From positions 1 to 35,390 of the forward strand of contig JAGVQB010000001.1 of the NCBI GenBank assembly GCA_020051955.1: a DNA stretch of 35,390 nucleotides, read 5' to 3'. The notes below the pieces were generated by a model. It did no database searches and was not told where the DNA came from. It saw nothing but the letters and a program-made list of their open reading frames with translations. The position numbers and the translations under genes were made by a program. This stretch comes from a bacterium (GTDB lineage Bacteria > Patescibacteriota > Patescibacteriia > UBA9934 > GWF2-40-263). Every line of letters begins with the position of its first letter. Within the stretch, counting starts at the first letter, position 1. Shown in pieces: positions 915-35,390 of the stretch.

Positions 915-955
915 AAATCTCCCCACTTTCCAAGGGGGGATCAAGGGGGGTTGCC
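915..955. repeat. Dispersed palindromic element, copy 1 (intergenic)
   Basis: aaatctccccactttccaaggggggatcaaggggggttgcc; near-identical copies at 8135 and 32655. Confidence 0.85.
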
Positions 956-1159: not shown

Positions 1160-1249
1160 GCCAAGATTCAACCAAAGAAACACCTTCTCCCTTGCCACCA
1201 GGCCTGGCACCCAATCCTGGGAGGGAGAGAAACCGTGAGGAGTAGAGAG

Positions 1250-6118
<4,869 letters not shown>

Positions 6119-6220: not shown

Positions 6221-7804
6221 ATGATAAATCTTCGGATGATTTACAAGCGTACACAAGAGCATATGATTTTTAATTTTGTCGCGCTTTTTGTGGTGCTTGT
6301 TTTTTTGATTGCGCTTCAGGCGATCTTCTCACCAGCGCTTGTGCTATCGGGTGTCTTCATCGCGTGCCTTGTCGCGCTTACCGCTCTGCGTCCACACTGG
6401 GCACTGGGTCTGCTTGCTGTTTACCTTCCGTTTGAATCTTTTATTCTCAAATTCATTCCAGATGACATTTACGTTTTTGCTCGGTATGGTTCCGAAGTTC
6501 TTATTTATCTCGTAGCGGCTGTTGTGATCGTCCGAGTCCTCGCTGGCAAACGTGGTTATCTTTCCACACGTTTTGATCTTCCGTTTTTGCTTTTTGTGGG
6601 AGCGCTCGTTGCCTCGGCGTTGGTAAACCTTGTCCCACCCACGATTGCGATTCTGGGTCTGCGTCAGATTTTGCGTTTCATGATTGTTTTTTTTCTTGTT
6701 GTACAGATCGCGCCATCAGCAACTTTCATCAAGCGCCTGACCTGGGCGATGTTTGGTATTGTCGCGTTCCAAGCGCTCTTGGGAATTTTCCAAGCGATCA
6801 TCGGTGAGCCGCTTGACGCGTTTTTACTTTCTTCGGAAGCGCGAAACCTTGGCAGTATTTCCCTCACGCAAGGCGTTGAACAATTTTGGGATCCAGGCTC
6901 GCGTGTGTTCGCGACGCTTGGTCGCTATGATCGTCTTGGAAACTTTCTTTATTTTTTTCTTTTGATCGGTAGCGGATTTTTGTTTACGAAAGAGCTCGCG
7001 AAAAAAATTACTTGGCTACCTTGGTTGTTCGCGCTCGCGGTCCCCGTGCTTGTGCTGACTTATTCTCGCTCATCGTGGTTCGCGTTCATACTCGGGTTTC
7101 TCTTCATCGGTCTTTATCTCAAAAAAGATCGGCGAGTATTGGCTGGGCTTGCGGCATTTCTTTTGTTCATTTTTGTTGTTCTTGGGACATCTGGGTTAAA
7201 CGTTGGTTTGATAACCGAGATGCCTGGTCAGTCTTTGTCAGAGCGTTTTTATGAGAGCTTCAGTTACGCGCGTTGGAGAGGGGAGTATTACGGATTGGGT
7301 CGCGTATTTTGGTTTGTGCACACGCCGCTGTCTGTTATTCCTGCCTCGCCGATTTTAGGATTCGGACCTGGGCAATTCGGCGGCGGCGCGGTCTCGGCAT
7401 TGCACAACACGAGGGTGTATGAGGAGCTTGGACTGCCGTTTGGAGTGTTTGGGACAGAGGGGTTTATCGACAACAACTGGTTTTCTCTTTGGGGAGAAGC
7501 TGGGACACTGGGAATGATTTTTTACTTGTGGTTGTACGTTGGGCTGTTTGTGTTTTCGCTTCGCACGGCTCGTGACGCGAAGGACCCTTTTACGCGCGCA
7601 CTCGCGTTGGGTCTGTGCGCGGTATTGATCGCGATAGCTTTTAACGCGTTTACCTCGACGCTGTTGGAGATTCGCACGTCAGCGTTTTATCTTTGGCTGT
7701 ATGCGGGGTTTGTGTATGTGCTTGGGAGGAGGGGAGGGGGAGGAGGGAACAGTGAACAGGGAACAGTGAACAGGGAACAGGGAACAGTGAACAGGGAACA
7801 GTGA
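6221..7804 (+). CDS. O-antigen ligase family (Wzy-like) polytopic membrane protein
   Basis: 527 aa, many hydrophobic segments; VLTYSRSSWFAFILG and NNWFSLWGEAGTLGMIFYL motifs typical of Wzy_C ligases. Confidence 0.8.
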   Translation: MINLRMIYKRTQEHMIFNFVALFVVLVFLIALQAIFSPALVLSGVFIACLVALTALRPHWALGLLAVYLPFESFILKFIPDDIYVFARYGSEVLIYLVAAVVIVRVLAGKRGYLSTRFDLPFLLFVGALVASALVNLVPPTIAILGLRQILRFMIVFFLVVQIAPSATFIKRLTWAMFGIVAFQALLGIFQAIIGEPLDAFLLSSEARNLGSISLTQGVEQFWDPGSRVFATLGRYDRLGNFLYFFLLIGSGFLFTKELAKKITWLPWLFALAVPVLVLTYSRSSWFAFILGFLFIGLYLKKDRRVLAGLAAFLLFIFVVLGTSGLNVGLITEMPGQSLSERFYESFSYARWRGEYYGLGRVFWFVHTPLSVIPASPILGFGPGQFGGGAVSALHNTRVYEELGLPFGVFGTEGFIDNNWFSLWGEAGTLGMIFYLWLYVGLFVFSLRTARDAKDPFTRALALGLCAVLIAIAFNAFTSTLLEIRTSAFYLWLYAGFVYVLGRRGGGGGNSEQGTVNREQGTVNREQ

Positions 7805-7849
7805 ACAGGGAACAGTGAACAGGGAACAGGGAACAGGGAACGGGGAACA
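7745..7849 (+). repeat. Heptamer tandem array, (GGGAACA/GTGAACA) x15
   Basis: Fifteen consecutive 7-mers read directly; spans the 3' end of the ligase ORF and its TGA stop. Confidence 0.95.
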
Positions 7850-7901
7850 GTGGGAATCGGGCAGGACGAGAGATCGCTCGAGAATCGTTGTTTCGTCTCT
7901 T

Positions 7902-7928
7902 CTTCCACACCTTCCACACCTTCCACAC
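7902..7928 (+). repeat. Nonamer array CTTCCACAC x3
   Basis: cttccacaccttccacaccttccacac read directly. Confidence 0.85.
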
Positions 7929-7946
7929 CTCCCCACCTACTTACTT

Positions 7947-9191
7947 ATGACAATAATCCACGCCAACAAATACTACTTCCTCAAAGGCGGGGCAGAGAGA
8001 TACATGCTCGAGCTTTCGAATTGGCTTGAGAGGCAGGGGCATAAGGTCGTGCCGTTTGCGATGGCGCATCCAGACAATCTCTCCACTCCTTATGCGAAGT
8101 ATTTTGTTAGTCAGATTAAGACCAACGAGAGTGAAATCTCCCCCCTTTCCAAGGGGGGATTAAGGGGGGTTGCCGAGCGTCTCCACACTTTCGGTCGCAT
8201 GATGTATTCGCTGGAAGCTCGTCGCAATCTTGCTACCCTCATCACCCACACCAGACCTGACTTGTGCCATATTCACAGTATCTACACGCAGATTTCGCCG
8301 TCGATTTTGCACACGCTCAAAGATCAACACGTGCCAGTCGTGATGACGGTTCACGATCACCATCTCATCTCTCCGCAGTACAATGTTTGGGCGCAAGGAT
8401 GTGGAGAGGATTATCGAGACGTTGGATTGCTGGCTGGCACTCTCGCGCGTTATCACAAGGGTTCATTGTCGGGGAGCTTTGCCCAGACCCTCGCGTTTAA
8501 GTTTCATCGCGCGCTGAAAATCTACGAACGTGGTGTTGAAATGTTTATTTGTCCTTCGCGGTATATGAAGCGTCAGCTTATTCGCGGTGGATTTTCAGAA
8601 TCAAAAATTGTCGTGATTCCTTACGGGATTGATGTTGCTCGTTTTGAGCCGCGTTACGATCATGATGGATACTTTCTTTTTGTCGGGAGGTTGAGCGAGG
8701 AAAAGGGGATTGAGACGATCGTGCGCGTCGCGCGACTTTTGCCTGACCTGCGTTTTAAAATTGTCGGTCGCGGGCCGCGGATGGAATATCTACACCGTCT
8801 TGCCGATGGACTCACCAACGTTGATTTTATGGGTTTTCATGATGGAGACGAACTGCGTGATCTTTACCGTGGCGCGCGAGCCGTGTTGTTGCCTTCGCGC
8901 GTTCATGAGAATTTTCCACTCACTATTTTGGAAGCAATGGCTTTTGGCAAACCAGTTATCGCGAGCAATGTGGGCGGTGTTCCAGAGACAATTGAAGATC
9001 GAGTGAGTGGCCTTCTCGTATCGCCCGCTGATTTGCACGGATGGGCAGAGGCCGTGATGCGCGTCGCGTATGATGATGAGATGCAATCGCGAATGAGTCA
9101 CGAAGCGCGCTTGGCAGTCGAGAGAGGTTTTGGGTTAGAGGAACATTATCGAAGGGTGATGGAGGTTTATCAAAACATCACGCAAAAATAA
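7947..9191 (+). CDS. Glycosyltransferase family 4
   Basis: MTIIHANKYYFLKGGAERYMLEL N-terminus, VGRLSEEKGIETIVR, EAMAFGKPVIASNVGGVPE. The ORF-track start at 7815 lies in low-complexity repeats. Confidence 0.85.
   Translation: MTIIHANKYYFLKGGAERYMLELSNWLERQGHKVVPFAMAHPDNLSTPYAKYFVSQIKTNESEISPLSKGGLRGVAERLHTFGRMMYSLEARRNLATLITHTRPDLCHIHSIYTQISPSILHTLKDQHVPVVMTVHDHHLISPQYNVWAQGCGEDYRDVGLLAGTLARYHKGSLSGSFAQTLAFKFHRALKIYERGVEMFICPSRYMKRQLIRGGFSESKIVVIPYGIDVARFEPRYDHDGYFLFVGRLSEEKGIETIVRVARLLPDLRFKIVGRGPRMEYLHRLADGLTNVDFMGFHDGDELRDLYRGARAVLLPSRVHENFPLTILEAMAFGKPVIASNVGGVPETIEDRVSGLLVSPADLHGWAEAVMRVAYDDEMQSRMSHEARLAVERGFGLEEHYRRVMEVYQNITQK
8135..8174. repeat. Dispersed palindromic element, copy 2, in-frame in a glycosyltransferase CDS
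   Basis: aaatctccccccctttccaaggggggattaaggggggttgcc-type element; encodes ISPLSKGGLRGVA. Confidence 0.85.
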
Positions 9192-32312: not shown

Positions 32313-33050
32313 ATGAAAGTTATCGCAATAATCCCAGCGTACAATGAGGAGAAGACAATAACCGAGGTGCTGAAAAAAGCATCTGGTTTTGTTTCTAAGG
32401 TTATCGTCGTGGATGATGGTTCACTTGATCGAACCGCGCGAATCGCGCGCGCGAACGGGGCGTTGGTCGTAAGTCACTCAATCAATCGTGGGCTTGGCGC
32501 CGCGATAGGCACAGGGTTTGAAGCCGCGAAACGTTTTGGCGCAGACGTGGTAATTACACTGGACGCTGACGGTCAACACGACCCTTCCGAGATCCCGTCA
32601 TTTTTGAAAGCCATCGAATCCGGCGCGGATGTTGTGATTGGATCAAGAATGATTGGCAATCTCCCCCCTTCCCAAGGGGGGATAAAGGGGGGTTGCCTGG
32701 ACTGGTGTTACGACGGGGGTTGCCTGCACGTGACTGGAATGCCCTTCCACCGAAGAATCGCTCAACTCCTCGGCAACCTTGTTACGCTTATTTTATTCGG
32801 CGTGTGGGTGACTGACAGTCAATCTGGATTTAGAGCGTTTACGAGTTACGCGCTTTCAAAGATCGAAATCAAAACAAATCGAATGGAAGTTTCGTCTGAA
32901 CTAATTGCCGAGGCTAGGCGTAACAGGCTAAAACTTGTCGAGGTTCCGATCAAGGCGATCTATACCGATTATTCACTTGCCAAGGGGCAGAGTTTTATCG
33001 TGGGGCTGAAGACGCTTATCAAACTTATCCTACGACGCATCACTCAATAG
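32313..33050 (+). CDS. Glycosyltransferase family 2 (dolichol-phosphate mannosyltransferase-like)
   Basis: IAIIPAYNEEKTI..VIVVDDGSLDRTA..VVITLDADGQHDPSEIP..VTDSQSGFRAF. Confidence 0.88.
   Translation: MKVIAIIPAYNEEKTITEVLKKASGFVSKVIVVDDGSLDRTARIARANGALVVSHSINRGLGAAIGTGFEAAKRFGADVVITLDADGQHDPSEIPSFLKAIESGADVVIGSRMIGNLPPSQGGIKGGCLDWCYDGGCLHVTGMPFHRRIAQLLGNLVTLILFGVWVTDSQSGFRAFTSYALSKIEIKTNRMEVSSELIAEARRNRLKLVEVPIKAIYTDYSLAKGQSFIVGLKTLIKLILRRITQ
32655..32697. repeat. Dispersed palindromic element, copy 3, in-frame in GT2 CDS
   Basis: GGCAATCTCCCCCCTTCCCAAGGGGGGATAAAGGGGGGTTGCC; encodes NLPPSQGGIKGGC. Confidence 0.88.
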
Positions 33051-35291: not shown

Positions 35292-35390
35292 AACGAATGC
35301 GAATGTCGTGCGAATATACTAATGGAACGAATGCGAATGTCGTGCGAATATACTAATGGAACGAATGCGAATGTCGTGCGAATATACTAA
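35292..35390. repeat. 34-bp tandem repeat, 2.9 copies, running off the window end
   Basis: aacgaatgcgaatgtcgtgcgaatatactaatgg repeated at 35292, 35326 and 35360 (truncated). Confidence 0.95.

Follow-up and report, generated by a model that had tools for sequence, protein, structure and literature searches.

The DPM1-like glycosyltransferase gene examined here contains, in frame, a 40-nt imperfect palindrome that recurs throughout its genome, and we consider it very probable that this palindrome is a recently active, non-autonomous and very small mobile element whose in-frame insertions are retained in tolerant protein loops. The window, by which we mean the whole stretch of 35,390 nt analysed, is contig C59 of a metagenome-assembled genome (MAG) of about 1.0 Mb in 63 contigs. 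A sequence-only reading of the window had described a palindromic repeat inserted in frame in this gene, in a segment through which the frame stays open. Both statements hold, since the palindrome lies inside an uninterrupted ORF of 245 aa that matches PF00535. Beyond that reading, the insert has counterparts elsewhere in the genome: a covariance model (R1), built from twelve copies that match it by construction, finds 44 copies in the genome at E ≤ 0.1. The features of the window that bear on the element are:

32313-33050, forward strand: DPM1/ArnC-like GT2 glycosyltransferase gene with in-frame insert (ORF, PF00535, phmmer, Foldseek).
32658-32697, forward strand: 40-nt imperfect palindromic element AATCTCCCCCCTTCCCAAGGGGGGATAAAGGGGGGTTGCC, matched by R1 at E 2e-15; four further genomic copies have the identical sequence.
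32662-32682, no strand assigned: inner hairpin with arms 32662-32670 and 32674-32682 (repeat search).
32698-32729, forward strand: insertion tail in which the 3' end of the element recurs in part (GGGGGTTGCCTG at 32715-32726; direct repeat), absent from the orthologs in the same-genus genomes G001 and G002.
8135-8174, forward strand: element copy lying in frame within a GT4-type glycosyltransferase ORF (7815-9191), encoding EISPLSKGGLRGVA (window and covariance searches).
916-955, forward strand: intergenic copy adjoining TACAGATT short repeats (covariance search).

The assignment of the host gene to GT2 comes from Pfam (PF00535, E 5e-25), and is joined by a phmmer match to PfDPMS (5mlz, E 2.8e-16), by Foldseek matches to GtrB and, at the top, to ArnC and PfDPMS, and by a GT-A fold with DAD and GSR motifs; D84, D86, Q88, H89 and R112 are invariant, and the closest orthologs belong to Candidatus Uhrbacteria (Patescibacteria). 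In PfDPMS, Arg117 binds the lipid phosphate together with Arg131 and Ser135 (PMC5526996), and the phmmer alignment equates it with R112 of the host (chain numbering offset 22). Going by this correspondence, the insert appears to be placed after an acceptor-binding residue and outside the mobile A-loop (residues 202-210). Elsewhere in the window, a 1627-aa ORF at 1235-6118 contains Asp/Cys-rich repeats of the DNDCDG type.

The stretch GSRMIGNLPPSQGGIKGGCLDWCYDGGCLHVTGMPFHRR stands in place of the GSRMLTGFVGMPLHRR of G001 and G002 and is longer by a net 23 aa (69 nt), made up of the 40-nt element and a tail in which the element's 3' end is repeated; the two occurrences of GGGGGTTGCCTG, at 32688 and 32715, are spaced 27 nt apart, and the 3' boundary of the tail is approximate. 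The extra segment had earlier been put at about 25 aa, of which only the first half was attributed to the palindrome. Alignment with the orthologs bears out the insertion at 23 net residues without fixing its exact 3' end, and takes from it the terminal 'VTG', which is probably native judging by G001 and G002; the first half is indeed the palindrome, and the second half also holds the near copy of the element's 3' end. One relative of the tail occurs in the genome, behind the element copy in a rimK-like gene. The 9-nt arms of the inner hairpin pair perfectly, and alternative 8-nt arms exist at 32663-32670 and 32685-32692. The DNA fold of this hairpin (-11 kcal/mol, z -1.0) is no stabler than its composition predicts, and an unusually stable hairpin was rejected as a property of the element on the same ground; the segment 32600-32800 matches no Rfam family. 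In an AlphaFold2 model with a mean pLDDT of 86, the insert (residues 116-139) falls below 50, which agrees with the earlier guess of a surface loop; the roughly 23 residues added after the GSR motif are probably disordered.

Across the genome, a pattern search recovers 12 copies and its reversed-pattern control none. Five copies, the one in the DPM1-like gene and those on C28, C30, C49 and C60, are identical in unrelated contexts, the same 40 nt being found within secA, at another gene's end, between genes and in the glycosyltransferase. Within the window itself there are three copies at up to three mismatches (921, 8140 and 32663), compared with none in 100 dinucleotide-preserving shuffles, and the copy in the GT4-type gene is absent from same-genus orthologs. 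The element comes in a 40-nt short form and a 70-nt long form whose loop holds an additional 30-nt stem, and in subfamilies that end in TTGCC or TGGGAGTG; a nested palindrome was rejected as an independent element, as all 8 of its matches lie inside element loops and represent the long form. The TACAGATT short tandem repeats occupy 857-905, just before the intergenic copy, and similar sequence precedes other intergenic copies.

Four pairs of copies form inverted doublets, three of them with a 15-nt gap and all outside genes (0/27 in-gene copies in doublets versus 8/17 outside genes, p 1e-4), and target-site duplications show no excess over a swapped-flank control (3.11 vs 3.20). The lack of a duplication, the palindrome and the inverted doublets suggest a REP-like, possibly single-strand, process. 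The element, which would insert at many sites, may move by copying, with its hairpin, possibly single-stranded, acting as a substrate for a Y1/HUH (REP-type) transposase or for template switching. A narrower mechanism within this explanation, in which a RAYT (Y1 tyrosine transposase) would move a REP/REPIN-type element that has spread into genes, is possible but somewhat doubtful. REP, BIME and REPIN elements with their RAYTs (PMC3733652, PMC3116915) are likewise 20-40-nt palindromes that leave no target-site duplication and form inverted doublets, set apart by a constant spacer, outside genes, and our genome has two Y1_Tnp genes. However, REP and REPIN elements are extragenic whereas copies here lie mostly in genes, the consensus contains neither the GTAG nor the CGTC tag, 11 copies occur in genome G020, where no Y1_Tnp was detected, and across 60 genomes Y1_Tnp does not co-occur with the element, the two counts being uncorrelated (Spearman 0.16, p 0.22). 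Nor does the element flank the two Y1_Tnp genes of its own genome, where another inverted repeat is found instead. Each of these genes (L004:962-1915 and L005:960-1920) lies between the arms of an inverted repeat that contains GGGGTCAGGTCTT.

About 27 of the 44 copies lie in frame within ORFs, and some 20 ordinary housekeeping genes are hosts that gain short peptides and stay unbroken, when the count is limited to ORFs of 150 aa or more in which the copy has 15 aa or more on either side and one case upstream of polA is removed by judgement (C49:4555, which precedes the likely polA start and was not counted as coding). Hosts named by NCBIfam, the majority, are dinB, secA (two copies), leuS, mnmA, epmA, dnaX, murI, smc, lepA, valS, tsaC, polA, uvrA, dnaK, ychF and truB; others are glycosyltransferases, the rimK-like gene, a membrane protein with three copies, and ORFs to which no family name was assigned (e.g. 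C9:12814 and C30:5524). Insertions that persist in genes would be those that keep the frame and fall in tolerant protein loops. The three copies in the membrane protein gene (L139:1559-2815, 419 aa) are all in frame. A methyltransferase-like ORF (L111:666-1526) ends within an element copy and is perhaps a disrupted gene.

One of the six reading phases, (+,2), is taken by 15 of the 27 in-frame copies compared with its 15.5% share of open frames (p 2e-6), and copies in this phase have T or C where an A would make TAA in 4/4 cases, versus 1/10 (p 0.005), although both tests are post hoc, being chosen after the data were seen, and treat copies as independent. The preferred phase yields the peptide [IV]xPLPxGGxxGV. 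This strong preference, along with similar peptides at the same leuS loop in genomes G003 and G013, could be taken to mean that selection acts on the encoded peptide, which might serve as a flexible P/G-rich linker, and that the element is kept on its account. We regard this as improbable, as identical DNA is also translated in further phases and from the opposite strand, giving NLPPSQGGIKGGC in the DPM1-like protein and GNPPLSPLGKGGDL in SecA, so that the shared item is the DNA and not the peptide; copies also lie outside genes, and the phase bias is explicable by some insertions being less harmful than others. The insert would then be tolerated rather than useful. That the element is open in unusually many frames was dropped as an argument, the mean of 4.5 of 6 being only slightly above the 4.2 of composition shuffles.

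Comparison with same-genus genomes points to recent activity of the mobile palindrome: at the same threshold, our genome has 42 copies versus 1, 3 and 11. These comparisons are between species, and one side of each is a MAG. Sites free of the element, with conserved flanks, are found in same-genus uvrA, lepA, mnmA, dinB, valS, murI and smc, in an O-antigen ligase-like gene, in two glycosyltransferase genes and in the DPM1-like gene. Relative to these genomes the net insertion length varies from 30 to 69 nt, and the element boundaries are therefore not exact. Relatives also have palindrome-like inserts of their own in the same loops, recognised at the peptide level in leuS (G003 and G013), smc and secA (G003) and ychF (G002), and at the DNA level in the DPM1-like gene of G003, in which a palindrome of its own, ACCTCCCCTTGCCAAGGGGAGGT, encodes a longer P/G-rich loop; a palindrome-like insert in G003 mnmA lies in another loop. 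Inserts at shared loops fit repeated insertion into tolerant loops, and those at shared sites may also reflect inheritance followed by divergence.

It is very unlikely, in the light of these sites, that the segment is a native, family-specific P/G-rich loop extension with no inserted element. Loop length does vary naturally at this position (8 residues in L020, 4 in L018), but the longer P/G-rich loop of G003 is the product of another palindrome, relatives with conserved flanks lack the segment, and the identical 40 nt recur within secA, at one further gene's end and in intergenic DNA, with copies elsewhere in the genome sitting in other reading phases. The sequence-only reading had turned on whether orthologs from unrelated phyla carry the segment natively: the 13 cleanly read of 14 bacterial and archaeal homologs lack it, and their flanks align. 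Within the genus, the site in the DPM1-like gene is empty in two of three genomes, and the third, G003, has its different palindromic insert in the same loop. Homologs without the segment, empty sites and identical copies elsewhere led us to reject a native loop. Least probable of all is an artefact of metagenome assembly or binning with repeat-induced chimeras, for although the MAG is in 63 contigs and one copy (C12:10032) apparently ends or frameshifts a methyltransferase-like ORF, the frame is kept in about 27 ORFs, other genomes show the same pattern, and flanks align with orthologs on both sides.

The mobile palindrome that we favour can be set beside several known systems. The likeness to Rickettsia palindromic elements (RPEs), which are about 100-150 nt long and lie in frame in genes (Ogata 2000, 2002; via PMC10969869, PMC4316617), had been suggested from the insert alone and stands in kind: short palindromes are dispersed in a reduced genome, many in frame in unrelated genes and others intergenic, and their copy number is close to the 44 RPE integrations reported in R. 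conorii (PMC10969869). It does not extend to length, 40 or 70 nt here, or to host, here one of the Patescibacteria, and the element is RPE-like but not an RPE. MITEs with in-frame intragenic insertions (ERIC, Coxiella QMITE1; PMC10969869) are likewise non-autonomous, bear inverted repeats and are sometimes fused to genes; the element is much shorter, however, with no target-site duplication detected and no parent insertion sequence found in a transposase search that covered Y1_Tnp. It therefore differs both from REP/REPIN elements and from classical MITEs. Cyanobacteria reportedly contain very small dispersed repeats of tens of nucleotides that are apparently mobile, said to have been described in a 2008 paper by Elhai that PMC2884548 and PMC3116915 cite, and by that description the element resembles them in size, dispersal and apparent mobility. 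The open-access papers searched contained no account of an element of this kind from Patescibacteria, and its novelty is provisional. Tentatively, and with somewhat less than even confidence, we propose that coding palindromes as short as 40 nt make up a distinct superfamily in Patescibacteria that has been active recently, includes a long form extended by a stem and REPIN-like doublets, expands in bursts within individual species and settles repeatedly in the same housekeeping-protein loops.

Beyond the genus, at least one copy is present in 26 of 60 relatives' genomes (own included, E ≤ 0.001). Copies were also found in 10 of 287 genomes of the phylum (own included, E ≤ 1e-6) and in 2 of 48 genomes reached via other loci, one from Uhrbacteria and one from Nitrospiraceae; the large genome searches scored only some candidates, so that absence from them is weak evidence. 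The in-frame pattern recurs in other genomes in genes that by inspection resemble queA, tsaD and uvrB. Similar elements of 30-36 nt occur within CDSs of Planktothrix, Nostoc and Microcystis plasmids, as weak (E about 1e-3) and composition-biased matches; in Planktothrix, a gene whose annotation is DNA modification enzyme has three tandem in-frame copies of a weakly similar element. Searches for carriage by phages gave no match in phage records and no exact match in viral contigs.

In-frame palindromes in housekeeping genes have so far been mainly a matter of Rickettsia, and a shorter element in a streamlined Patescibacterium adds an independent case. If the cyanobacterial and Nitrospirota elements are kin, protein-coding palindromes would be general in bacteria and not a peculiarity of the Rickettsiales. 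Comparing many related genomes makes both movement without a visible transposase and the creation of new protein segments testable. The element also explains odd P/G-rich inserts (xPLPxGGxxGV) in predicted proteins, which can mislead annotation and structure prediction.

Two further repeats were noticed in the window. A 7-nt minisatellite, (G/T)GAACAG, at 7744-7850 runs from the end of one ORF into the beginning of the following one; the repeat also recurs throughout the genome (111 overlapping 28-mer matches), and leuS contains some of it in frame (EQGTGNSEQGTGNSEQGTG, L010). An exact 34-bp tandem repeat at 35292-35390, in 2.9 copies, runs off the contig end.
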